Source: a virus
Strand: one strand, 5' to 3'
Length of the DNA: 47,006 nt
IMG/VR virus record: IMGVR_UViG_3300042876_000370
Coordinates: 1 to 47,006 of that record
Shown here: positions 4,487 to 32,000 of the stretch, piece after piece
Numbering within the stretch: position 1 is the stretch's first letter
Layout of the letters: the number at the start of each line of letters is the position of its first letter
The notes under the pieces: generated by a model
Databases searched by the model: none
Seen by the model: the letters and a program-made list of their open reading frames with translations, nothing else
Told to the model about the DNA's origin: nothing
Made by a program: the position numbers and the translations under genes

Positions 4487-4874
4487 ATTTGAAGTGACCG
4501 AGATCGTAGTTGGGCTGCTGGCGACCTATCCGAGCTTTCAGCCCAAGGTACCCATCCCGGAAATGGTCAAGGCGTACCGGCGGGCACTCGGAAACCTGCC
4601 GCCGGCAGCGGTGCGCCGGGGTGCGGCGGAGATCACGCGCGAGAGCAAGTTTTTCCCAAGCGCCCAGGAGATCCATTCAGCCGCCAGGCAGGTCATGGTG
4701 ACGTGCCGCGGGCATCAACTGATGGAACTGGACGACGCCGGCCAGCGCTTTCAGGATGAACTGTACGGCTTTGCCGAGCCGCTGCTGACGCACAACGGCG
4801 GGGAATGGAGCAAGGGCCAGGTTGAGGAATATACCCGGCTGATGGGGAAGAAACCCAGGATGGTGAAGGCGTGA
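4473..4874 (+). CDS. Helicase loader/inhibitor-like protein (G39P-type N-terminal domain)
   Basis: This 133-aa protein starts at ATG 4473 behind GGAGGG and overlaps the initiator by 14 bases. The segment ATYPSFQPKVPIPEMVKAY, then LGNLPPAAVRRGAAEITR and KFFPSAQEI, matches the layout of phage helicase loader/inhibitor N-terminal domains (aromatic-Pro turn, helix with W/Y, then [KR]FxP[ST]xxEI). Such proteins bind the host or phage DnaB helicase and deliver it to the initiator complex. The C-terminal part (residues 75-133) is helical and less typical. Overlap with an O-like gene upstream supports a replication role. No phage helicase is visible, so the host helicase would be its partner. Confidence 0.5.
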   Translation: MAVSEFEVTEIVVGLLATYPSFQPKVPIPEMVKAYRRALGNLPPAAVRRGAAEITRESKFFPSAQEIHSAARQVMVTCRGHQLMELDDAGQRFQDELYGFAEPLLTHNGGEWSKGQVEEYTRLMGKKPRMVKA

Positions 4875-6331
4875 GCGCCTACTACAACGACATTGATCCT
4901 TACTGCTGCCAGGTGCTAAGGAAACAAATCAGGCTGGGTAACCTGCCGAAAGGTGACGTGGATGAGCGAGACATACGAACCGTTGGAGCCGATGAGCTGC
5001 GAGGATACGACCAGATCCATCTCTTTGCCGGAATCGGGGGCTTCCCGCTCGGGCTCAGGTGGGCCGGATTGCCCGACGACTTCAATATCATTACCGGAGG
5101 CTTCCCCTGCCAGCCCCATTCAACCGCCGGCAAGCGATTGGCAAGCGCCGATGAGCGGGATCTGTGGGGAGAGTATGCCCGCATTATTCACGAGCTTAGA
5201 CCCCGCTGGGTGCTGGCTGAAAATGTACGAGGGCTACTTTCTAGTGAGTCTGGACGGTTCTACGGTCGCGTTCTCCGGGACCTGGCCGGCTGCGGGTATC
5301 TGTGTGAATGGCAAATGCTACCGGCTTCGGCCTTTGGTGCGCCACACATCCGGGAAAGGGTATTCGTTGCTGGGTACACCCCAGTTCACGACCCCGACCG
5401 CCAGCGATGCCACCGGGACGACCGGCGGGGGGAACAGTCGCAGCCTGCGGGACGATGTGCGCATGTGGCCGACGATGACCGTATCCGATGCAACTGGCAA
5501 CCGGATGAGCAAGGGCAAGAAGAGGCCGAACGAGGGCGGACTACTGAAGGCGGTTACATTCCCAACCCCCAGGGCCAGCGATGGACAGAAGGGCAGCCCC
5601 AACCAGAAGGACAGCGACGGGAACCCCAGTCTGGCCAACATCGCAGCTCATTACCCGACGCCCTGCGCAACGGATTGGAAGAACCGGGAAACGTCCAATC
5701 AGGTGGGATTACAAAAAACGATTGGTGGGCAGTTGAACCCGGAATGGGTGGAGCTTCTAATGGGCTATCCGAAAGGTTGGACGGAGATAGATTGACAGAT
5801 GAAACGCGAAGCAGATCCAGAGAAATATTGCGAAACTTGCGAGAAAAGATTGACTCGGAAGACGTTCGAGAATGGGAGGCTGGAAGACCTGGGAGCATTC
5901 AAGCGCAGGAAATACTGCAGTCTTACTTGCGCAAACTCCAAGAAACACCCGAGCCATTGGACAACCTACCATTTGCGCGCGAAGAAGCACAAGAAAGATT
6001 TTTGCGAGGCTTGCGGGCAAAAGAAAAGCCTTCATGCCCACCACATAGATCAGAACCCGGAGAACAACGAATCGGAGAACATTCAAACTCTTTGCATCCA
6101 CTGCCATCACTTTTGGCACAAGACAGCGGAGAGATTGGGGAGGGCCATCGCGGGAAGAATGCCGAATTTATATCCCTGAATGCTTGGCGGCCTGGTTGGG
6201 AAGGCGATACTCCACGAGTTGCCAAAGGGGTACCCGCCCGGGTGGACCGACTTAGGGGACTCGGAAACGCCGTAGTTCCCCAGGTGGTGGAGTGGATTGG
6301 GAGAAGGATATTGGAGGCGGAGTATGTCTGA
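4871..6331 (+). CDS. C5-cytosine DNA methyltransferase, interrupted by an HNH gene within its frame
   Basis: GTG 4871 overlaps the upstream TGA. Motifs: I at residues 52-57 (FAGIGG), IV at 76-84 (GGFPCQPHS, catalytic Cys80), VI at 117-119 (ENV), VIII at 161-168 (RERVFVAG), and IX/X near 460-471 (RLRGLGNAVVPQ). The frame stays open for 486 codons although a complete HNH endonuclease gene occupies 5799-6179 in another frame; the HNH region adds about 128 residues with no methyltransferase character (residues 309-437). Just before it, EPGMGGASNGLSERLD looks like a second, diverged copy of the real C-terminal block TPRVAKGVPARVDRL. From about 5375 the codons in this frame become unlike the rest of the phage (many CGA, GGA, CAA, GAA), while the overlapping frame looks normal. 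The N-terminal catalytic part is convincing; whether the whole 486 aa is a working enzyme is open. Role: phage DNA methylation against host restriction. Confidence 0.75.
   Translation: MSAYYNDIDPYCCQVLRKQIRLGNLPKGDVDERDIRTVGADELRGYDQIHLFAGIGGFPLGLRWAGLPDDFNIITGGFPCQPHSTAGKRLASADERDLWGEYARIIHELRPRWVLAENVRGLLSSESGRFYGRVLRDLAGCGYLCEWQMLPASAFGAPHIRERVFVAGYTPVHDPDRQRCHRDDRRGEQSQPAGRCAHVADDDRIRCNWQPDEQGQEEAERGRTTEGGYIPNPQGQRWTEGQPQPEGQRREPQSGQHRSSLPDALRNGLEEPGNVQSGGITKNDWWAVEPGMGGASNGLSERLDGDRLTDETRSRSREILRNLREKIDSEDVREWEAGRPGSIQAQEILQSYLRKLQETPEPLDNLPFAREEAQERFLRGLRAKEKPSCPPHRSEPGEQRIGEHSNSLHPLPSLLAQDSGEIGEGHRGKNAEFISLNAWRPGWEGDTPRVAKGVPARVDRLRGLGNAVVPQVVEWIGRRILEAEYV
4962..5795 (+). CDS. Overlapping-frame protein nested in the C5 methyltransferase gene
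   Basis: A 277-aa ORF in the +1 frame of the methyltransferase begins at ATG 4962 (MSETYEPLEP), with only a weak AAAGGTG upstream. It contains repeated TPTASDATG, WPTMTVSDATG, FPTPRASDGQKG and YPTPCATDWKN blocks and ends LNPEWVELLMGYPKGWTEID. I recall this PTPTASD...LNPxWVEWLMGxPxGWT pattern as widespread, both as separate phage ORFs and as the C-terminal part of some actinophage C5 methyltransferases. Over roughly 5375-5795 its codons (AAG, GGC, AGC, GAC, CTG, AAC) match the rest of the genome better than the methyltransferase frame does. Its first half could be only a shadow of methyltransferase motifs, since SPASPIQPP is the +1 reading of the motif IV region. It may be a target-recognition or accessory subunit. 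Confidence 0.5.
   Translation: MSETYEPLEPMSCEDTTRSISLPESGASRSGSGGPDCPTTSISLPEASPASPIQPPASDWQAPMSGICGESMPALFTSLDPAGCWLKMYEGYFLVSLDGSTVAFSGTWPAAGICVNGKCYRLRPLVRHTSGKGYSLLGTPQFTTPTASDATGTTGGGNSRSLRDDVRMWPTMTVSDATGNRMSKGKKRPNEGGLLKAVTFPTPRASDGQKGSPNQKDSDGNPSLANIAAHYPTPCATDWKNRETSNQVGLQKTIGGQLNPEWVELLMGYPKGWTEID
5751..5790 (+). repeat. Left copy of a diverged 40-bp repeat flanking the HNH gene
   Basis: These 40 bases align without gaps to 6216-6255 with 13 mismatches by my count. In the overlapping frame the copies read ELLMGYPKGWTEI and ELPKGYPPGWTDL; in the methyltransferase frame both give the GxSNGLSERLD / RVAKGVPARVD block. The pair brackets the HNH gene. Confidence 0.6.
5799..6179 (+). CDS. 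HNH homing-type endonuclease
   Basis: A 126-aa protein with Cys pairs at 11/14 and 40/44, the block RRKYCSLTCANSKK, and an HNH core: CEACG at 69-73, HHID at 81-84, NN at 89-90, then LCIHCHHFWH at 98-107. This is the zinc-bound HNH type common in phage free-standing homing endonucleases. It starts three bases after the stop of the overlapping-frame ORF, in the same frame as it, and lies wholly inside the C5 methyltransferase reading frame. Codon use is more AT-rich than in the neighbours (AAA, GAA, AAT, TTT), consistent with a recent arrival. Its insertion close to the methyltransferase C-terminus, between two related 40-bp segments, suggests it is an intruder in a conserved site. Confidence 0.85.
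   Translation: MKREADPEKYCETCEKRLTRKTFENGRLEDLGAFKRRKYCSLTCANSKKHPSHWTTYHLRAKKHKKDFCEACGQKKSLHAHHIDQNPENNESENIQTLCIHCHHFWHKTAERLGRAIAGRMPNLYP
6216..6255 (+). repeat. Right copy of the diverged 40-bp repeat flanking the HNH gene
   Basis: Mate of 5751-5790, in the same reading frame relative to the overlapping ORF. This copy leads directly into methyltransferase motif IX/X (LRGLGNAVVPQ), so it is probably the original C-terminal segment, while the left copy belongs to the truncated overlapping ORF. Confidence 0.6.
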
Positions 6332-17078: not shown

Positions 17079-20000
17079 ATGACTGACAATTCGCAGAGCA
17101 AGACGCCCATTCTTGACCAATATTACAAAGACCAGGCCGCGAAAGATGCGGCTGCTACTGGCGCGCCGGCAGTCTCGAACAACCCGAACCCGCTGGGGAT
17201 CTATGAACCCGGCCAGGATATGGGACCGCTGCGCTACAGTCCTGAAGAGCTGGACTACTGGCAGAAGGAATATGCCAAGACCGGGGAGAGCATTGACGCG
17301 AACTGGCTGGGCAACCAGCAGCAGCTCATCTATGACTACCACATGGCGCGGCCGGCGGACTCGTATTGGGAAGAGCCAAGCACCCTGGCGCGCTGGGCTT
17401 TGCTCGATCAGAACCTGCCCAAGGAAGCGGCCCGCCCGGTCTGGATGCAGTCTGATGTGTTGCAAGGGCTGTACAACTACCTGAGCGAACAGAACGGCAA
17501 CAAGCCGTGGTATGAGTGGGAGAAGCTCAAGACGACCGACCCGGTGCGGATCTTATTGCAGCGCATGCCGCTGCCTGATACCGGGGATATGCCCGACTGG
17601 GAGAAGAAGGCGCAATCCATTTACGGCAACCTGCCGCCTGACATTCTGAACGCCATCAGCAGCCTGCCCGACCCGCAGAAGTGGGGCGAGCAGCGCGCGC
17701 TGACCAGCGAGCAGACCGCCAAGATCCGCGAGATCAATAACTTTATCGAAAACCCCACGGTGGAGCAGGGCACAGACGCCAACGGCAACCCGATAGAGAT
17801 GGTCGCCGGCATCTCCAAGGCCGAGTGGGATGCGATGGACCTGGGCCAGAAGGCCGAATATATTGCCATGTCTCCCACGTCACCCTATGCGGCCCTTGTT
17901 CAGGCGCCGGCCATTGGGGTAGGGATGGGCGCGGTAGGCAGCGTGCTGGAAAGCGTAGGCCTCAAGGCGTTGTTCTCTCCGCAAGGTCTCAAGAATGTGA
18001 TTGCGGGTGGCGCTAAGGGCTTGATCCCCGGGGTTGCGTTTGGGATTGCGATGACCGCGGCCCAGCAGTACCGGCCTATGGAAGCGCTGGGAGCGGACCC
18101 GGCTGGCGTCCAGGCGAAGGGCTGGTTTAAAGACCTGTTGACCTCCATGGGTTTCCGGGTGGCGCCAGATGCATCCTGGGAAGATGCGGCCATGGAACTG
18201 CTCAACCTGCCCATGAATGAGATCCAGAAGCAAATCGGCTGGGGTGTGATGAACGCTGCGGACCTCGGGAAGATGCTGCGCGGTGAAGCCCCGGACACGG
18301 CGACCTTTGAAAAGATGGTCGCGCCCGAAGACCGGGACACGCCCGAGAAATTCAAGCAGCAGTACGAGCTGTGGAAGAACGCGCGGCTCGAAGCATCGCG
18401 CGCCTTCTACCAGACCGACCCGTTCAAAAACCTGACGGCGCGCGGTGTCGAAGTGCGCCAGCCCGGCAGCAAGGAAGTAACCCAATGGTCGCCGGCCGAT
18501 CCTAATTCATCCGTGTCTGAGTACGTGCTGGATCAGATTGCGATTGACATTTATCACAAGCTGAACGCCGGCGAACCCCTGGCGCCGACTGAGCTGGCCT
18601 ATCAGCCCATCCTGCAAACCCTGTTTGGGGTGGGCGGGCAGACCTCCAACCTGATCGCCCAGGTGGTATTAGACCCGTCCGACTTGATCCCCAAAGGCAT
18701 CAGTATTGTCTCTTCGGAGGCGAGCAATATTGCGACCAGCGTGATCGCCGGCAAGACCCCGAACGCCAAGCTGTCGGCTGCCATGCTGGAAGCCAAGGGA
18801 CCATACAGCGGACTGAAGCAATACCAGGCTGATCTCAAGCGCACGCCCGTGAATGAAATCCTGGATAACTACGGCTGGTTTGAGCGCACCTTAGCCGGGA
18901 TCGATGAGACCGGGCAGCGGAAAGACCTGAACACCGTTCAGAAGGGGAATGCAATCAGCCAATTCTTCGGCAAGCTGGCCGGGCTGACCCCGGAAAGCCG
19001 CGTCTTCGAGGTGGTGCATACCACCTATAACAGCGTGCTCAATATGCTGGACAATTTCCGGCGCGACACCGGCGCCGACCCTGAGCAGATGGTGCAATTT
19101 ATTGATCGTATTTCGGCCCCGACGCCCGAGGCCGCGATTCGGATGGCGGCGCAGGCGGAGACCATTACGGTGCCTATGAAGGTAGGGGGAGAAACGGTTT
19201 CAACTCCCCTGCCCCGCCAGTTCGCAAGCCCCGAGCTGCAGCCGGCCTTGATTGCGCTCAAGGACCAGGAAGTAAAAGTCCACGACCTGCTGAGTGAATG
19301 GCGCAGCGCGGAACCGGCCCGGGATCTGGTACGGCGCGCGGCGGCTGCTTTGGAAATGGACGAGCACCAGGTCATGGCAACGATGCTGAAGGGTGGCACC
19401 GAGGCGCGCAGCCTGATCGACCTGGCGACCAAGAAGGGCATGGCGGACGCGGCCGGATTGGAAGGGGCGGCGAAAATCTTCTATGATCCCACCAACAAGG
19501 CCAGGAAGACCGCCTTTTCTTCTGAAGACTTCCAGGCGGATCTCTCGATCTTACTGGCAGAAGGCGCCGAGAAGTGGGCCATTGGTCACTTTGGGGTGAA
19601 GGAAATGGGCTGGATGAACAAGCTCAACAACCTGATGAAGAACGCGCAGGGGTTGGTGCTGTTCGACTATAACCCGGCCTATGCCCTGAACAATGGCATC
19701 AATAACCTTGTCACTCTGGCATGGGATGGGCTCTTAGGCAGCTTCCGAGGCCCAACCTACAGCCGGCTGCTGGAGCGCTTTGGCCGACCCAGCTTTACCG
19801 AATCAGGCTTGACCCCGGCTGAATATGGCACCGGGCAGGCCGAGGCGGGCCTGGGTGGGCGCAAGGGCAGGGCGCAGAGCATCGGCGAAGAGGTGCGCAA
19901 AACCCGCTGGGGGACTGGCCGCATCGCCGATGCTAATGAGTTCGTGGGTGGCGTGCGCGGCAAGCTGGGTTTATTCAATCGGCTCTCGGGCTGGATGGAG

Positions 20001-23000
20001 CGCCGGACCAGTCAGATCGCAGTGGCGACCGCCCTGGATGAGATGATGGGCAGGAAGTGGCGCGCGAGTGCCGACCCCAAGAGCGGGGGCTATCGCAAGC
20101 TGCCGGCGGATTTGCGCGCGGACCTGAACCGGATTGCGCCCGGGCTGGCGGATAAGCTGGAAAAGGCGCCGGCTCGTGGGCTGAACGTGCAGGAAGTGGA
20201 GCGCGAAATCTTCAGCCGCTGGAACCAACGCAGCGTGAAGGACGTGCTGAGCGAAGGCGAGTATAACCTGCTCTCCAAGTTCCCGGCTGTGCTGGAAGGT
20301 CTGGAGACCAAGTTGCGGACTGCGACCGATATGCGCGGGGTAGACCAGGCGATTGACGAGACCAAGACCGAGTTTCAGGACCAGGTAAAAGAACGCCTGG
20401 CGCAATCGACCCGGGCCATGGTCGAACAGGGCAAGGCCGACATTACCGTCGAGGGCACGCAGAAAATCTTAGACAAGATTGATGATGTAGTGCCGAACCT
20501 GATGGAGTTTTGGGGCAAGTATCAGGACGCCATGGGCGAGACCGCCGAGCGCGCGCGCAACGCCCCGACCGACGAGGAAGCTGACCGGATCTGGTTTCAA
20601 AGCAAACGGGAATGGAATCAAAACTGGCGCAACTTCGAGGTATTGCAGGCCGGCACCTGGCGGGGTGTGTTCGAGGGATTGGGCATCAGAAGCATGGACG
20701 CGGCCAACCCAGCGAACAAACCCTACTTTGATTTCATGCAGAGCATGCAGGATCTGCACGACCGGCACCAGGCTTATTTCGTGGTGAGAGACCGGGAGCT
20801 AACCCGCTTCTTTACCGCCAAGAAGAACAAGAACATCACCAAGCGCGACCTGTCCAATATTTGGGCGGACGTGCAGCGGATCAACAACGAGGAATATATC
20901 CGCATGGTGGCGGATGAAGACGCGATCCAGGCGGCTGCGGATGAGGCATTCGTCACCCAGTTTGACCAGGAACGGCCCGAGAGTAAGGGCAGCGCGGCCC
21001 AGTGGCGCAGCGCCATCCGTGACGTGCGCCGGCAGATGATGCTCTCCGAGATCCTTTACCGCGGGGGCAGCCTGCCCGCTGGATTGGTCAAGGAATGGGG
21101 TGTCACGCTTCGCCCTGAGATCGTGCAGGAGATCAACAGCCTGACCCTCAACCGGGCAGAATGGCTGATCCCAGGCAACGAGCGGCCCGGCATACAGAAA
21201 GGTTATGCCGACATTCGCCGGCGCTTCCTGCGGGAAATGCTGGACGCATCGAACGGCAACCCGCCCGGCAAACCAGTCGCCCCACCCCCGGCACCGACCA
21301 TGCCGCCGGCGACTCCAATCGTGCAAACTGCACAAAAAACGCAGCCAGCGGCCCCAGGATCGGCGCCTAGCCCGATTGCTGAAGCAAGCCCTGTACCGAT
21401 GACCCCGGCAGCGCAAACAGGCCCTACAGCGCCCGTCCTAGCGGCTCCTGGGGGCATTGATGCGGTGACCGGACTGCCACATTATGATTACGCCCAACCC
21501 AAACCGGTGGCGGTGGTGGATCTATACGACCGCGAGGGTGCGGCTCTCAATCAGAGCGAACGCATGAACGTCCTGGCGCAGACCATTGAAGCCCAGGGAA
21601 TCGGGCAAGCAGCCTGGTATGGTGATGGCAAGCTGGCGGTTGTGGTCTCGGATCTGGACGCCGCCCGGACTGCCTTGCAGAACCTGGCCGATACCCAGGA
21701 GGGCGCCTTTGTCTTCGGGCTGGGCGCGCGCGCGGTGGACGCCGAGATTGCCGCCGGCCGCTATAAGAAGATCAACCAGCCCCCCGAACGGCGCGCCGCT
21801 ACCCGCGAGGAACGCCTGCAGTGGCTGGCCACCCATGACCAACTGACCCGGCTGTGGAATAAACTGGCGTTTGATGGGGATGGCGGCCAGATCAAGGGCG
21901 ATTGGCAGGAACGGATTGAACTCAACCAGGCAATGGGCTTACCTGCCCCGGTTGTCAGCGTGTTGGACGTGCGCGGCTTGCATGCCACCAATAACGAGAT
22001 CGGTTATGACGCCGGCGATGCCTACTTAAAAGCGATTGGGAAAGCCTTCACGGATGAGGGTTTAGATGGCTACCGGACCGGCGGGGATGAATTTGCCGCA
22101 ATCTTTGACGACCCCGCCCAGGCCAAAGAAGCCATGGACCGGGTGATTGAACGCATCAATGGTGCGATAATTCAAGTAGGAGAGAAATACTATGTCGGAT
22201 CAGCAGCCCATTACGGGACCGGCGGAGACTTCAAAACCGCCTACGAAGGACAGCTCGCAGCCAAGCGCGCCGACCCGCGCGCCGCAGAGTTCGAGCGTGC
22301 CACCTACAAACTCAAACCCGCCAGTGAAAGTGATCTTGCCGCCCAAGGGCAGCCACCTGATACCGCGCGCCCAGGCGGAACGGCTGGGACTGATACCACC
22401 CCGGGACGCACCTACGGCGGAACCATCGAAGACCTTGACGCCGCCGAGCGCGCCCGAGTCGACGCCGCCCGCGCCAGCTTCGCCGCCGGCCTCAACCGAG
22501 AGCAACACTTTGCCAAGCTCAGCCCCCAAGAGCGAGTAGTCCGCGAGAGTGAGGACTTCCGCCAGGCTGCCGCCCGGTTGCTGGATGAGCTATCGGGAGG
22601 CCACCCCGAAAAAATAAAAGGTGGTCCAATCCTGGGATCGACCAACCCGGAATGGTACAGCCTGCTGTATGACAGTTTCAAGAAGAACGGGCAGAGCCTC
22701 AATAAAGAGCTGCTGCGCGATGCCCTGCAATCCATCATCGACAAAACCGAAACCGAGTTCTACGCCGCCCGGCGCAATAAAGCGTTGGGCGATCAGTATA
22801 TCAACGAGGCTGAAAGGCTGGTACTGGGTTCGCTCTCGGAGAATGAACCGGTGCAGTTGTGGCTCTCTCATCGCTATCGGGACGCCATGCTGTCCTTCGA
22901 TGCGGTCAATGAGCAGCTTAAGGCCGCGGGGCTGGAGCCTTACGATGTGCTGCGCGAGATGCAAGCCGCGGGCTTCGGCGAAGAGCAGGCCAACAATTTC

Positions 23001-26000
23001 TATAACGCCTACGTCGCCTACCTGGATGGCCGCGACCCGCTGCCCGGGCTGACCACCGAAGAAGCCCATGGACTGGTAGCAGGCATGCGCGCCGCCGACC
23101 TGGTGGAAGTGACCGCCAGTGGCGAGATCCGCACCCCCGATGACATTGAAGCCCTGATCCCTGAAAAGCAGGCCCTGGAAGAAAAGCAGCCCAGCCGCGA
23201 AGCCCTACGCAGCGCAGTCCGCAAGGCCGCGCATGAAGCCGGCTTTGACTACGACGATAAGCACCTGATCGCCAGCGTGAACAAATACCTGGAGATCCCC
23301 GAGGGGCGGGTAACGAGCGTGGACGACCTGACCCCGGAGATGATTGACGCCTGGGTAAGCGCGCGCTCGAAAGCCAGCAAGGAAGCCGAAGAGATCAAGC
23401 GGATTGCGATTGAACAGGCGCGCATCCTGGATGAAAACCTTGAGGCGATCCGCGCGAAGTACCCGGATGAGGCCCGCGCCCACGAGATCAAGGATCTGCT
23501 GCTTGATTTCTACGGCGACGAAGACTTCGCCCAGGCGAGCTGGGAAGATTTTGACCTGGTGACGCGCAACCTGGCAGCCGTGACCGGCGAGAGCGTGGAC
23601 GCGCTGCGGGAGAGGATCTTAGCCAGCGTGGGTGATATAGACCTGCCCGCGCACCTGGAACAGCTTGCCGAGCTGCCAGTACAGGAAGGCTTGACGCGCC
23701 GGCTGGATGAGGCGCGCAAGGCTTTACTTGAAGAAACCTGGCATGACCCTGTTGCGAAACGGTTTATTGAACGGTATGAGCAGGAGGGTTATTATCGCCC
23801 AACCTATACTAACGATGGAAATTTCGAGCTGCACCGGTCAGAATTTCCTTCGTTTGTTGGGCATGAGGCAGCCTGGGAAGAGTTCAAGCTGGCCCTGTCA
23901 GACCTGAAATGGTATGAGGAGACCGGCGAGATTGCGGCCAGCACGATGAAGAGCTACCGAGATCTGCTTAATCGTCGGCACTCGGGTGAGTTCTTATGGC
24001 AGGACAGCGAAGGCAAGGCCATGGTAGAGAAGGCCGTTCAGAGGTATGGAACGACTGAAGACTTCGGCCAGGCTGGGTACATTCTCCCTGATGGACGGTT
24101 GCTGAACCTGAGGCGGGCAGAGCGGGATTACTTGGAACATTCCGGCGTAGCTGCGCATTTGTTGGGGCGCAATAAGACAAGCGGAAACGCAGACATTCGA
24201 GACTTCCAACGCCAGACTAATGCCATCCGAATGGACGCCTCTTCACCCAGCGCAGGGAATGCTTTGATCTTTTTGGATATGGCTACTCGTCCAACACGCG
24301 CACAGATGCGGGCTATCGAAAATGGAATCGCGTACAGCCCACATAACTACTTCACAATCCAGTACGACACGCCGGGAGGCGGGTACGGTACCTTCGGGAC
24401 CACCAAGGCGAACGCCCTGGACGACCTTAACAAGATGGTCCGCCAACGGTTTGACAATGCCCTCTTCCAAGATCGCAACGGCGCCACCTTCTGGGATGAA
24501 CAAGGGCGCGCGCACATTCGCCTGATGCGAGATGCCAAGAGGGATAGCAACTTCTCCACCTGGCACCATGAGTTTTTCCATGCCCTGCTGCCTTTGCTGC
24601 CGGCGGATATGCTCAAGGTGTTCGAGAAATACCTGGCCGACGAGCATGGAATCAGTAACCTGCCCGAAGGTTGGCAGAACGGCACCAAGAACGCCAAGGC
24701 CAAGGAGATCTTAGCCCGGGCAAATGAGCGCTACCTGGTGGAAGGCAAGCACGTTTTGAACCTGCCCGCCCAGGTGGTGGCTGTGCTGGATAAGATCAAG
24801 ATCTACATGCTCAAGGTCTACCAGCAGGTGACAGGTCACTCGATTGATGTGCCGCTGCCTGACTACCTGACAGAGGTATTTGATCGGCTGCGCAAGGAAG
24901 AGGAAGTCAAGCCGGTTATCCCCGAGAAGTCGTTTGGTCGCATCAAGCTTGGACCCAACGAGTTTGTAGATATTACCGCCTCAAATAGTGCAGATTGGTA
25001 CGGGCGATACACCGAAATGCTTAGAGGGTACTCGGCTAAAGCTGCCTTTGCGATGGACAGCAGCCTGTCCGAGGCAAGCAAAAAACTGCATGCGGCTGGC
25101 GTGTGGAACGCTTACGAGCAGCTCAACGACTTGAGAAATGCGCTTCTTGATAGCGGGATCAAGAGAATAGCGATCCCAACAGACCCCCGCAATATGGGGT
25201 TAGCAGACACCCGCCAGGTAGCCGAACCTCCATTATCCCCCGAGCCTGTTGCAACTACCGCAACACCAGAAGGACAATTCAACCTGATCCCTGAGACCGA
25301 GGGTTGGCAGTTGCAGGCGCAGACCGCGCAGGCGCAGAAGTTCAACCCGGCGCGCGAAGATTTGCAATCGTCCCTCTTCGAGCTACCCCAGCCCGAGGGG
25401 ATTAAACCAAAACCAGCGCCAACTACCACGGACTTAGGCCCGCTATTTGCCAACCAGCCCGAGCCCGAACCCAGCCCCTGGGTCAAGCAGGCGCCGGTTG
25501 CCGAACCCGCACCCGACCGCCAGGCGCGCCTGATGACCGCCCTCACAGAGCGGATTGTCAGCCAGCAAGATTTGTTCAAAACGTCGCGGGACTTTGAAGA
25601 CTTCGCGCGCAGTTTTGGATTTGACCTGGACCGGGAAGCGGATCTCAATTATGCGTATGACCTGCTAGAAGGCTCATTCAATCTGTTGACCCGCCGGCTG
25701 CGGGCGAACATGGCCGGGCTGCCCCTGGTGGATCGCCTGACGCAACTGGCCGCCCTGGAAAAGCAGCTCGTGAAGGCGCGCCGGACCCTGCTCAAGAGCG
25801 AACTGCAGCAGTTCTCTACCCCCCTGACCCTGAGTGAAGCCGCGGGAGAAGCCGCCGACGTGCGCCCGGGTGACGTGATTTGGGAACCCACCGCCGGCAC
25901 CGGGAACCTGGTCAACCGCTTCGCGGACGATAAGAGCGTGAGTGTGCGCGTCAACGAGATCGACCCGCAGCGCCGCGAAGTGCTCAAGCTGATCGGTTTC

Positions 26001-29000
26001 AATCCGACTGACCTGGATCTTCTAAGTCCGAAATGGCTGATTGGCAGCGATAAGAAGCTGCTCAAGCCGAACGCCAGCGTTCAAATCACGAACCCGCCCT
26101 GGGGGGCTTACTCCACCGGGAAATACGGGCAGGCCATGCCGCACCCGATCAAGGGTATGAACGACTGGTCGCAGCGGTTTACCTACCTGATGATGGAACG
26201 CCTGGCGCCGGGTGGCCGATTCGTGGGCGTGATGCCCCTGAATTGGATGTATACTGTGGATAGAAGCTCGCGCGCCCTCAACGTCAAGAAGTCAGCCTTC
26301 TTGACCTACCTGGAAGAGAATTACAATGTGCGCGCCCTGATCGAAAGCCCAGCAGGTGCCTACGATCAACGCGCGACCGGGGTAGGATCTCTTCTCATCG
26401 TGGTCGATAAGACCCAAAACAGCCTCAAGGATAGTAATACCAGGCTGTACCGTTGGGGTGAGAGCGCCCCGAAAGACTGGGCCGAGTATGCGGACCTGAT
26501 CAACCAGATCCAAAAGCGCGACCCGGAGGAAGTAAAGAGAGGTCAAAATGCTGCCCGAGCAACCGGACTCTTCAGCGATAGGAGCTTCGTCCTTCCCACC
26601 AAGCAACAACCCACCGGCCCCGATGCCGCCGGAATTGCCGACCCAGCCGCCCGCCGAGGTGAGCGAACCGGCGACCCCGCCAACATTGGAAAGCCCATCG
26701 AGCAACCCGCCCGAACCGAACCCCCAGCAGAGCGAGAACCCGCTGGAGGATTACCTGTTCAGCGGCCCGATAGAGAAGCAGGATCTATCAACCCAAGACC
26801 TGGTAACGAATTATCTGGGATTGGGGAGCGAATTGGCGGACAGCCCGGAGGACGTGCAGCGGATGCTGAACAACTGCCAACCCCGCCAGAAGGTAACAAC
26901 GCCCCCGTGGTGGAAGGGCAAACCCCAGGCGTTCCGGGACCGCTGGAACCAGGAATACCCGAACCGAGTGGACGACCTGGCGGAGAGCAGCCCGCAGCTC
27001 TTACAGAAGACCTGGGAGTACGGCCTGTTGAGCTCGCCCCAGTCCCAGCCGCAGAGCCCAGCCGAGAAGATATTGACTACCAGCGCAAGTGGCAGGCAAC
27101 GATTGATGCAGTTGAGAGCGCTGGAACTTTTGCTGGATATGTGGGGAGAAGCCAGGCAAGGTTAGAGGCTGAAGGCTACCCGACCCACCACCACCCCAGC
27201 GTGGTGGTCGAAACCAAGGCACTCATGGGAGTGCCGTACCCCGAGCTTGAAGACGCATACCGCCCGACCGATGGGGTGATGAAAGCTTATCAGAGTGGCG
27301 CCCTTTCCATGGAAGGGCAGCTTGACGTTGTGTGGGCGGCGATCCAACAGAACGATAAGCATGGCATGGGGATGCTGGTGGCGGATGACGTGGGCATGGG
27401 CAAGAGCCGCAGCGCCGCCGCCTTCGCCCTGGACCGGATTGAACGCGGGCAGAAGATCGTGCTCGTTGTTACCAAGAACCCGGGCAACGTGCGCAACCTG
27501 ATGAACAACGAGTTTCCGGCGATCTTTGGGGAGCAAAAGACCCGCTTCGTGGATCTCTCGGGTAAGAACATGCCCGATGTGAAGAACAAGAAAGAAATCC
27601 CCATCCCCACCTATGACGAGCCGGCGGTGTACTTTATGAGCGCCACCGAGTTCGCCTCCTTCGGCAACAAACTCAAGGATCTGCCCGTTCAAAGCGTGAT
27701 CGTGGATGAAGCCCACACGTTTAAAAGCGTGGACGATACCAAGCAGGGCATTTTCTGGACCGGTCTCCATGAGAAATGGAACGCTGATGGCGTGAATTTC
27801 CTGTACCTGACCGCCACCCCCGCGACCGACCTGATGGAAATGAAATACCTGTATGGTTTGAAACTGTGGACCGTGGACGGTTTTGGGGATTGGCTGGGGG
27901 TGCTGACCGGCAAGATGAGCCCGGAACAGGCCAAGACCAAGGCCAAGGTTTTCAACGAGGCAGCGGCTTATCAGAAGCAATTGACCGAAGCGGCCGCGCC
28001 GGTCCTGACGAATGTGGAACCTTTGTTCGGCGGCAAAGAGTTGGGCTACAACTTTGACGACAATCTGTACTACCAGGAAGGTCGCCAAAAAGGAACCGGG
28101 AAACTGATCGCCAGTGACCGTTATGGCAGCCCGGTTGAGATTTACAGCGGTGATGCGACCATGGCCGCGATCATCGGGCAAACCTTGAGCGACATTCTGC
28201 AGCCAGGCGAAAGCGGGCAAATCTCTAAATATATGGTGGACTATTACAAGTCCCAGGCGATGCAGGCGATTGACGAGAAATTCCCCGCGCCCAAGATCGA
28301 CAAAGAGACCCGCGACGCCCTGAACACGGATGCCTCCGATGCCCTGGAACTGCTGGATAAGAAGGGTAAGAAGCGCTTCGGCGCCGGCCGGACCGCCTTC
28401 GAGAGCACCCTGCCCCCGGAGCACACCGAGCAGATCATGCGCGAGATGAAGCTGGGCGGCAGCTACATGAGCCGGGATATTGCCCGGAACGGGGTGGAGT
28501 TTGAGGCCAAGGAAATCAAGCTGACCCCCGAACAGAAACGCCGGCAGGATGAACGGATTGACTTCTACCGCCAGGTCATCGCAGCCTATCAGAAATGGGG
28601 CAAGTTGAACAAGCAGAAGAAGATGGACTTTGGGGTAATGGGGAAGATCCAGGACGATGCCAAGCGCGCTCTGTTTGACTACCGCCTGACCCAATCGCTG
28701 CCCGAGATCGACGCGGCGATTGCGCGCGGGGAGCAGGTGGTGATTGCGCTGGTCTCGGTGGGCGAAGTGGACCCCCTGCAAGGCGGGCACCTGCGTTCAG
28801 CAATCGATATGATCAACCACGAGGAATCGCACGAGACCGGCGATGGCACGTACAGCGACCCCGCGGACATACCCGAGGCCCAAGAGGAAAAAGCCAGGCT
28901 GCTGGAGCAGGCCGAAAAACTGGGCCTGGGCAGCCCGATCAAGCTGCTCGAAAGCAAGTACGGCGACCGGATTGGGTTTGTGACCGGCGAGGTCACGGAT

Positions 29001-32000
29001 AAAGCCCGCGCCTCTGCGATGACTGCCTTCCAGCGGAACAAGCTGGATGCTATCGTGATCTCCGGCGCCGGCAAGACCGGGATCAACCTGCACGACATTA
29101 CCGGCAAGCGGCGCATGCACCTGATGGTGGTGGACTTCGACTGGTCGGCCACCGAGTTTAAACAAGAGCTGGGCCGGGTAGACCGCACCGGGCAGAAGAG
29201 CGCGCCGAAAGTGACGGTCTTCCATACCGGGAACGCAGCCGAGCTGAAGTTTATCTCGACCATCACCAACCGCATGAAAGGGCTGGGCGCAACCTCTAAG
29301 GGCGGATCGGAATCGACCGGCACCAGCGCACTCAACGAGCAGTTTGAGCTGGGCTCGACCTACGACAAAGAAGCCCTCAATGAGATGTGGCGCAAGCTGC
29401 CCCGCCCGGATAAGCTGCTGTTCATGGATAAGTATTTCTACGATAACGGACAGCCCAAGGCCGAACTGAGGCAGACCGCCGAGGCAATCAAGAAGTTCAC
29501 CATGGCGCTGCAAAGCATCAGCCTGGATAAGGCCAATCAACTCGTAAAACTCTGGATGGATGAGCGCGCCAAGTTTACCGAGTTGGAAGCCGGGGCTGCG
29601 GCAGTCAAGAAACAGATGAGCTCAGGCGACGTGCTGCGCACGACCGAACTGGGACCGAACCTGACCCTGACCGAGGCGCGCGACGCGACCGGGCACCGTT
29701 TTGGGGTGGTCTCGGGGGTACTTACCCCGCAGATGAACAAGCTGGCCAGCGCCTTCGGCAGCACAGACAGCGAATTTGTGAATGGCGAATGGCGCCCGAA
29801 ACAATGGCGGGAGTGGATCAACTTTACCAATACGACCAACAATGAGAAAGTCTCGGGCCTGGTCATCCCCCCAGGAAAGATTGAAACCATTGCGGCCATG
29901 TACGGCACCAGCATCAAGGCCAACCGCAGCATAGCGACCGCCCTGGAAGACATCAAGGCCGGCGATAAGCTGCCGATCGTGGGCGCGGATATGAATGAGT
30001 GGACCCTGCGCCTGGGCACGCTGGGCGCGCGCAAGGGCAAGATCGTGATTGAAGGCGCGCGCATGGCACAGAAGAACCCGCTGATGAACAACGGCGCGCG
30101 CTATGATGCGGTTGGATCGTTCTTCTATGTGCCCGAGGAAAAGCTACAAGACTTCCTGCACCGCTTCCCGCTGCGCGAAGAGACGCCGCCGGGAGCACTC
30201 TACCAGGAGGCAGAAGCCCCAAGCGTTCCGCCTGGCTCGCGCCGGATGGCAGCGAACCCAGCCGATGACATTCGCGCTGTGATGACTGGGCAGGCAAAGC
30301 TAGAAGACTATGGCCCGAATGTGCAAAAGTTTATTCAGGCGGGTATCGCTCAGTTTGTCTCTTCTTACGAGCGAAAAGCAGGCACCCCCGAATGGATGGA
30401 ATGGTTTAAGCCAACCTACGAGGCATACAAAGCGCGCCAGCAGCCAGCTACCCCGGCTGTCAATGCCCCGCTGGGCACCGCCGAAAGCATGAGCCAACCA
30501 CCGACCGATACCGCCCAAATGATGGGCTACCTCTCGGAGGTTGGGCCAGTCCTGGAGAAAGCGCGCGGAGAGTTCGGCAAACAGCGCGCCACCCCTAACA
30601 GCGTGATGAACCTGGAGCAAGCCTTACCGCCCGAGACCATGAAGAAAGTACGCGGCTGGGCGGGCGGGGTCTATGCGGACCTGGCCGACACCAAGTACCA
30701 GGCGATCCAACACGCCAAGATGCGGCGGGATGCCGCTTTGCTGGACTACACCAAGCGGACCGGCTTCGATAACCTGCTGGGCGCGATCTTCCCGTACTCC
30801 TTCTGGTACACCCATTCGATGGTCAACTGGGCGATCCGGGCGCTCGAACGCCCGAGCACCCTGATCAACTACATGCGCATCCGCAACCTGCAAAACCGCC
30901 AGCAGAAAGAAGCAAACAGCCCGGGCCGGCTGGAAGGCAAGATTGAGCTGCCGTTCCTCTCCCAGGCATTGGGCGGGCGCTTCTTTGTGGACCCCATGCG
31001 CCAGATTTACCCGTTCGAGCAGATGCTGCGACCGTTTGAGAACTTCGCGGCTGACAAGAATCAGGCCGAGAAGCGCGCGGCGCAGCTCATCACGTACCAG
31101 GCGGAGAACGAAACCATCACCAGCGCCGAGGCGCAGACCGCCATCACCAGCAAGGCCGGTCCGCTGTGGGAGCGGGCCTATAACCAGGCGGAGCTGGAGA
31201 TCAAGGACGTGCAGCCCGGCGAATTGTCTTCTCAGTGGCAGCCCGGGCAGTCGCGGGATTGGGTGGATCTGGCGTTCCAGGTCTTATCTCCCAGCCTGCC
31301 CCTTTCTTTGGGCTATAACCTGGCGACTGGCCGGCAGATGGGGAGTCTCCCCGTTCAACGCTTCGTGCAGAACGTGACCTCCCCCTTCGGGATCGGCGGA
31401 CCGCGCGGGTTTATGCTGACCCGAGATAAGTTTGACGATTATAGAGAGGACAGAGAGTTGGCAAACATGGCCGGCGAAGGGCTGATTTCAACGGATGAAG
31501 CCAAGCGCGCCATGATCGACCGGGTTGGACCGGCCTTCGCGCAGGCCCAGCAGCGGGTAGCCAAGACCACCAGCGTGCAATACTGGCTGTCTTCTCTCGC
31601 GGCGGACCTGTACCCGGAGGGCGAACAGCACAACCGCGAACTGCACGACGAATATCTGAAGGCCCTGCAGCAGAAGGTGATGGGCGATAAGCAGGCCTTG
31701 AATAAGTTCTATGACGAGTACCCCGAGTATGAGGCCCGCAACGCCTCTTTCGATGAACCCGAGCCGCGCCTACGCCAAATGCTGATCTCGCAGATTTGGG
31801 ACAAATACGGCGAACTGAACAAGCTCAACCAGGACGCAGCGCAGAAACAACTGGGCGAGAAATTCGGCAATGCGTTTGTCAACAAAGAGACCCGCTCTTA
31901 TGACAGCATCGACACGCAGACCCTGGGCTTTTGGGCCAAGACCCTGGGCGCCAAGACCCCGGCGAAAGTGGCCGCCCCTGAGACCCCCTTGCAAGGGGTG

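Follow-up and report, generated by a model that had tools for sequence, protein, structure and literature searches.

A viral C5-cytosine methyltransferase gene read in two frames: a probable two-subunit enzyme with an HNH endonuclease gene nested at motif IX

Overlapping genes of the methyltransferase locus and their relatives

The virus record IMGVR_UViG_3300042876_000370, about 47 kb long, was analysed over its full 47,006 nucleotides (the window), and we concentrate here on a C5-cytosine methyltransferase gene that is overlapped by a second open reading frame (ORF) in the +1 frame. All features described lie on the plus strand. A first-pass annotation of the sequence had proposed dual-frame coding in this gene, and this was confirmed by an ORF at 4871-6331, called alpha (GTG start, 486 amino acids, stop included in the coordinates), together with a +1 ORF at 4962-5795, called beta (277 amino acids from an ATG, stop included). 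AAAGGTGA stands immediately 5' of the beta ATG, and an alternative GTG start at 4953 would give 280 amino acids (4953-5795).

Alpha is a member of the C5 methyltransferases: it matches Pfam DNA_methylase (PF00145) with an E-value of 1.2e-37, the match being confined to profile positions 58-163 of 324, and motifs I, IV, VI and VIII of the catalytic large domain are all present in it. Motif I (HLFAGIGGF, 5018-5044), the PCQ of motif IV (5105-5113, invariant) and motif VIII with its arginines (GAPHIRER, 5336-5359) were located in alignment A2; ENV is present, and motif X (RVDRLRGLGNAVVPQ, 6236-6289), in which G465, N466, V469 and P470 are invariant in alignment A6, stands at the extreme end. No motif IX-like sequence was found in the window alpha. 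Motifs VIII and X are joined by a linker (5360-6235) that crosses the DNA coding for beta and for a third gene, and that is nearly neutral and mostly predicted to be disordered; as the first-pass annotation had observed, this frame has no stop up to motif X (RLRGLGNAVVPQ). At the N-terminus (4874-5044) the order of motifs is altered, in that a stretch which we take to be motif II/III-like (YYNDIDPYCCQVLR ... GDVDERDI) precedes what we take to be motif I, an order found in 2 of 99 cluster representatives of the relatives described below (L008, standing for the window, and L012).

The product of beta matches PHROG 1008 with an E-value of 3.7e-30, a family labelled DNA methyltransferase, the label stating neither a subunit role nor an overlap. 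The TPTASD repeats and the C-terminus LNPEWVELLMGYPKGWTEID that had been reported for the +1 frame are indeed there. Four repeat blocks (TTPTASD, WPTMTVSD, FPTPRASD and YPTPCATD) occupy approximately 5388-5690 and are proposed as the target-recognition part, and they are followed by motif IX (LNPEWVELLMGYPKGW, 5733-5780) in the WVEL form that is found beside HNH insertions. Motif IX follows the pattern L-x-P...(L/M)MGFPxxW, and LNPEWVELLMGYPKGWT at the end of beta fits it. The third gene, an ORF absent from the first-pass annotation, begins with an ATG 3 nucleotides past the beta stop in the same +1 frame (5799-6179, 126 amino acids) and lies entirely within alpha. It matches families of HNH endonucleases, the best being PHROG 1271 (E-value 4.3e-11), with Pfam HNH below its cut-off, and its relatives occupy the same site.

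Relatives were fetched with independent queries, namely beta, alpha motifs I-VIII only and the HNH protein only, which yielded 374 sequences in total (five query sets and 9 further sequences, some contigs recurring across surveys). In 364 of the 374, beta overlaps alpha and is read in the frame +1 of it; of the remaining 10, 6 have no detected alpha, 3 have both parts in one ORF and 1 is at +2. The overlap was found in 80/80 sequences of the alpha-query set, in 80/80 and 44/45 of the viral beta-query sets, in 77/80 loci from bacterial and archaeal genomes and in 74/80 of the HNH-query set. The bacterial and archaeal loci are spread over many phyla, prophage and contamination both being possible. 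In the alpha-query set motif IX was recognised by pattern in none of the 80 alphas and in 66 of the 80 +1 ORFs (three loci are cut by the contig end), and the ORF covering the end of motif VIII spans 105-515 codons in the +1 frame and is mostly far shorter (7-141) in the +2 frame. Since the alpha profile was built from beta-bearing alphas, this result is a statement about their family and not about all C5 methyltransferases.

A single-sequence search with the window beta returned one close relative, locus L008, the others needing profiles. All 85 beta proteins compared match PHROG 1008 (best E-value 5.2e-74), none of the 85 has a Pfam match, and a beta profile found nothing among solved structures up to an E-value of 1. 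The same profile matches the in-frame C-termini of actinophage methyltransferases (L004, E-value 4.4e-13; L006, 2.1e-6). The first-pass annotation had placed the repeat blocks both in frame in such enzymes and in free ORFs: the former holds for L004, L006, L374 and L378, while free-standing beta genes were not found among the 374 sequences, where one locus (L320) has beta without a detected alpha. Two actinophage pairs already annotated as overlapping, gp6/gp5 of Mycobacterium phage Firecracker (L375) and 067a/067b of Arthrobacter phage ArV1 (L379), have motifs IX and X in the +1 ORF, and ShiLan gp70 and Gordonia phages have both in the alpha frame. In five actinophage loci with IX and X in the alpha frame (L004, L006, L374, L376 and L378) TPTASD blocks persist in the +1 frame of the front half, and it looks as if part of beta was returned into frame. 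Three Paenibacillus-phage-like loci (L101, L107 and L113) have short beta ORFs of 127-175 codons, which suggests that TPTASD units were lost, perhaps with a change of target specificity.

Stop codons and selection in the two frames

To evaluate stop avoidance, codons were redrawn among their synonyms so that the product of one frame stayed unchanged; this was done in clusters defined at 80% nucleotide identity, which are not fully independent. With alpha fixed, 98 of 99 clusters had a +1 frame free of stops from motif IV to motif VIII, against 19.6 expected (standard deviation 3.5), while the control frame was open in 8 against 8.8. With beta fixed, alpha was open from VIII to IX in 78 of 88 clusters against 2.7 expected (standard deviation 1.5), the third frame being open in 0 against 0.7, and 40 alpha-frame stops were counted against 371.9 expected. 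Homologues with stops in one frame, which the first-pass annotation had held to speak against dual coding, were thus looked for directly: alpha is interrupted in 10 of the 88 clusters, and these exceptions fit a two-protein model because 8 of them carry motif X in the beta ORF, motif X not being recognised in the other two (L124 and L202).

The position of the stops indicates where beta begins. Stops in the +1 frame are near expectation until about 10 codons upstream of PCQ, then drop to 6 against 49.1 over the ten codons that lead up to PCQ, to 4 against 9.6 in the next ten and to 1 in total against about 196 from codon 10 onward; in the +2 frame the ratio is about 1 throughout. The start of beta is therefore at or just before motif IV, placed by this profile only to within about 20 codons of PCQ. 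Taken with the openness of alpha up to motif X, this means that beta starts inside alpha and that alpha is read through to X.

The analysis of selection started from the 368 of the 374 sequences that had an alpha match and retained 192 that were non-redundant and had motifs IV and VIII in recognisable form (motif IX by pattern in 172), the rest being duplicates or lacking the patterns. The differences within 68 independent sequence pairs were sorted by what they do to each of the two frames, and their numbers were set against those of the mutations that could occur; the resulting ratios of non-synonymous to synonymous change (dN/dS) are simple counts, uncorrected for multiple hits, and motifs were called by pattern, so that some were missed. 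Upstream of beta, dN/dS is 0.22 (0.18-0.26) for alpha and 0.88 (0.75-1.03) for the +1 frame, and over motifs IV-VIII 0.32 (0.30-0.35) and 0.77 (0.69-0.86). Between VIII and IX the relation is inverted, with 0.91 (0.76-1.08) for alpha and 0.23 (0.20-0.26) for beta, and past IX, at motif X, alpha returns to 0.24 (0.16-0.36) with the +1 frame at 0.77 (0.64-1.05). The 15 pairs of the alpha-query set alone gave the same pattern. From this analysis, a frame-specific comparison across homologues of the kind that the first-pass annotation had recommended, it is evident that the constrained frame switches from alpha to +1 just after motif VIII and that both frames are used, each with its own constrained region.

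Codon use and the closest relative agree with this switch. Codons were scored as log-odds against the phage's own long ORFs: in the alpha-only stretch alpha scores +0.03 and the +1 frame -0.19, and in 5373-5792 alpha scores -0.07 and the +1 frame +0.10, which reproduces the change of preference noted near 5375. The near-identical contig L008 differs from the window at 6 of 6,840 bases (5621, 5630, 5633, 5645, 5663 and 5672), and all six differences are synonymous in beta and non-synonymous in alpha. They fall inside 52 bases of the beta repeat region, a clustering that suggests a small recombination tract from a diverged allele.

We also considered whether the +1 ORF might be non-coding and conserved only because it overlies a conserved methyltransferase gene of high GC content. 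In the window taken alone (20,000 synonymous recodings for each estimate) a +1 frame open from 4962 has a probability of 0.038 by luck, and the +1 frame is only weakly constrained over IV-VIII; alpha open through beta and through the HNH gene have probabilities of 0.0045 and 0.0018. It is the comparative evidence, and not the chance estimate from the window, that decides for dual coding: between VIII and IX the methyltransferase frame is unconstrained while the +1 frame is constrained, and the third frame has no depletion of stops, so that this explanation is extremely unlikely. Hardly more probable is that alpha has decayed past motif VIII, only beta mattering downstream, with the open frame and motif X as leftovers. 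Decay would account for the near-neutral evolution and the predicted disorder of the alpha residues between VIII and IX, but the shortage of alpha-frame stops, the constraint on motif X in alpha and the finding of X in the beta ORF in most clusters where alpha stops early all stand against it.

The switch of constraint just past motif VIII is also what would be expected of programmed frameshifting, in which the ribosome shifts to +1 after VIII and makes one methyltransferase with a +1-frame C-terminus. Decoding by frame change had been offered by the first-pass annotation as the alternative to two proteins, and it found no support here, because stops disappear from the +1 frame already at motif IV, far upstream of the point where beta takes over, and the methyltransferase frame is kept open to motif X; neither is needed by a ribosome that shifts after VIII. 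In the window, moreover, the product would end at 5795 without motif X. We therefore regard frameshifting as improbable, while the other half of the alternative, that both proteins are made, is strongly supported, because selection is opposite in the two frames, stops are avoided in both directions and the six differences from L008 all spare beta.

The HNH gene at the codons of motif IX

The HNH query was composed of the window and four viral loci, 50-60% identical to the window HNH, and included no methyltransferase. In the family alignment (A3) the C, H and N columns are invariant, so that the conserved HNH core and the zinc-binding cysteines are present. In all 89 HNH loci no stop occurs in the frame that lies one base back from that of HNH, and this frame contains motif X in all 55 loci in which X was recognised. 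An alpha core lies upstream in 84 of the 89, the HNH frame being +1 of alpha in 60 and +2 in 24. This host frame, the one that carries motif X, crosses the HNH gene without interruption in all 47 clusters, where 0.77 would be expected; it contains 0 stops (205.7 expected), and the remaining frame contains 182 (154.7 expected). In 39 independent pairs dN/dS is 0.30 (0.27-0.34) for HNH and 1.05 (0.95-1.17) for the host frame. The HNH gene is thus under selection and nested in alpha.

Comparison of filled and empty alleles (31 HNH-bearing and 158 HNH-free loci) gave 26 flank-aligned pairings, one of which (L156) was discarded by eye as false. In all 25 usable pairings the element sits at the motif IX codons. 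The insert length is a multiple of 3 in 13 of them, where HNH is at +1 of alpha and alpha is open through it, and a multiple of 3 plus one in the other 12, where HNH is at +2 of alpha and motif X falls in the beta frame. The window element spans approximately 5750-6247, a net 465 nucleotides (a multiple of 3) relative to an empty relative (L008 against L363); the bounds are approximate because a 33-nucleotide motif IX stretch matches both ends.

The motif IX copy left of the insert was found in 72 of the 89 HNH loci (39 clusters). In motif IX of the WVE type beside an insert, WVEWLM is lost in 25/25 clusters against 4/63 without an insert, and the motif is intact in 0/25 against 59/63 (p = 4e-18); for all types together it is intact in 14 of 39 HNH clusters against 62 of 75 (p = 9e-7). 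These p values overstate independence, as clusters share ancestry. The window's own WVELLMGYP belongs to these altered copies. Among the HNH clusters, the 14 with an intact motif all keep W-LM; 13 of them are not of the WVE type, being mostly HSRW, and the other is WVGW (L242). The HSRW-like loci that keep W beside the insert (L251, L255, L257, L262, L263, L272, L276, L280, L284, L287, L289 and L291) form a branch that may therefore use a different site or a different protection.

The filled and empty alleles and the recoded target lend indirect support to homing, in which the HNH protein would cut at motif IX and spare its own recoded copy. We are inclined to think, with some reserve, that these HNH genes are a mobile family living inside the motif IX codons, where they can do without splicing since they have themselves become stop-free in the host frame, and that they re-encode motif IX (WVEW to WVEL, K, A, G, S or T, or LM to LQ) in a form that their own nuclease would spare. 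The insert length, a multiple of 3 or one more, would keep X in alpha or shift it to beta, turning an arrangement of the M.EcoHK31I type into one of the M.AquI type, and one DNA would serve three proteins, in some viruses in three frames.

A putative two-subunit methyltransferase

Structure models were made of both products. In the alpha model, residues 1-175 have a predicted local distance difference test (pLDDT) score of about 90, with a dip around 55-70, the motif X helix scores 68-87, and residues 184-305 score about 33; the alignment with M.HhaI takes in 160 of the 327 residues of that chain (range 34-324), at 1.6 A and with a Z score of 18.2. Alpha therefore looks like the large domain of the enzyme, with the small domain replaced by an unconstrained linker.

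Very probably, the window encodes a split C5-cytosine methyltransferase of the M.EcoHK31I type in overlapping genes, with an HNH gene inserted at motif IX. Alpha, with motifs I and IV-VIII and with X at its C-terminus, would form the catalytic large domain, and beta, translated from its own start within alpha, would supply the DNA-reading small domain with the TPTASD repeats and motif IX. Alpha would cross the beta DNA merely as a stop-free linker leading to motif X, and the HNH gene would be written so that the motif-X frame passes through it without a stop. Alpha and beta would assemble into one enzyme that methylates DNA, probably guarding the phage genome against host restriction.

It is also conceivable that both proteins are made and that beta is not a methyltransferase subunit but, for example, a blocker of a host nuclease. 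The catalytic motifs are in alpha, and beta has neither a confident fold of its own nor a Pfam match in any of the 85 members. Beta does have, however, the motif IX that alpha lacks, it matches the in-frame C-terminus of fused methyltransferases, and motif X is found in the alpha ORF at some loci and in the beta ORF at others, which is sensible only if both parts join in one enzyme; a separate function is accordingly unlikely.

It should be noted that several observations weigh against a split enzyme as we describe it. Beta alone models poorly (mean pLDDT 61.9, predicted template modelling score 0.27), so that the case for a small-domain fold is built on motif IX and the fused relatives. Its constraint over motifs IV-VIII is weak and not clearly below that found upstream (bootstrap P = 0.094), and this part of beta is therefore known as kept open and not as a folded domain. 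An ATG at the DxRxLW motif, tried as a conserved start of beta, was rejected: it is not clearly above the null (22 observed against 16.1 expected, with the anchor in 82 of 99 clusters), and its apparent conservation is largely explained by the alpha amino acids. Finally, in M.EcoHK31I the predicted target-recognition domain is placed in the large subunit, whereas here selection puts it in beta.

In M.EcoHK31I the beta gene lies out of frame, overlapping alpha. The window resembles this enzyme, which recognises YGGCCR, in having a large subunit with motifs I-VIII and X and without IX, motif IX in a second polypeptide and an overlap in another frame, the likeness being judged by motif layout and not by sequence similarity. 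It differs in that the pair consists of phage genes and not, as far as seen, of a restriction-modification pair, and in having an HNH gene nested in alpha and a changed N-terminal motif order. According to one account, M.EcoHK31I and M.AquI have their C5 motifs split over two polypeptides, the M.EcoHK31I large subunit containing I-VIII and X together with the predicted target-recognition domain and the small subunit containing IX, while in M.HhaI and M.HaeIII the small domain includes motif IX and a variable region between VIII and IX (PMC3404938). M.AquI is split after VIII, with IX and X in the second subunit; loci such as L010, L015, L375 and L379 likewise have both in the +1 ORF. The window does not belong to this type because its motif X is in alpha.

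Concerning the HNH gene, the closest precedent is the ShiLan domain, described as a hidden out-of-frame HNH in a mycobacteriophage methylase, with an open host frame, and for which its authors proposed homing (PMC11855218). Both are inserted out of frame in a phage methylase whose own frame is stop-free, without a sign of splicing. The ShiLan HNH uses the third frame and has 195 amino acids from a GTG 18 bp in, whereas that of the window is +1 of the motif-X frame, has 126 amino acids from an ATG and lies at motif IX of an overlapping two-subunit gene; a beta frame is unmentioned for ShiLan in the part of the report available. The window HNH works like the ShiLan domain, and is not classed as one given its frame, start and length. 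In the available part of a study of 48 Paenibacillus larvae phages, gp61 and gp62 are both listed as DNA-cytosine methyltransferase, their overlap being unstated there (PMC6070908). The open-licence literature that we searched yielded no description of widespread overlapping alpha/beta methyltransferases in phages, nor of frame-by-frame selection, of motif IX as an HNH site or of its recoding. The idea of a hidden out-of-frame HNH is thus already known, and the motif IX site, the recoding of the target and the frame switching appear to be new.

Elsewhere in the window, 17079-32894 is a single ORF of 5271 amino acids with helicase domains of the Strawberry-notch type (Pfam Helicase_C_4, E-value 1e-20; AAA_34, 1.2e-15) and a GGDEF match above the cut-off (6.5e-7), unusual for a phage protein.

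If our interpretation is true, a large class of phage cytosine methyltransferases now listed as one protein each consists of enzymes with two subunits, and their DNA-reading half is annotated as a separate methyltransferase or a hypothetical protein, or left unannotated. Changing the codons of the annotated gene for synthesis would then abolish the second protein and probably the activity. The nested HNH gene offers a way for a mobile gene to reside in a protein gene without splicing, and the predictions on its cutting site are directly testable. The two known precedents are isolated cases, whereas hundreds of related viral genes share the two-frame arrangement, which amounts to a natural experiment in gene overlap: wherever one frame is under constraint the other is relaxed, and in the relaxed frame only the absence of stops is preserved.

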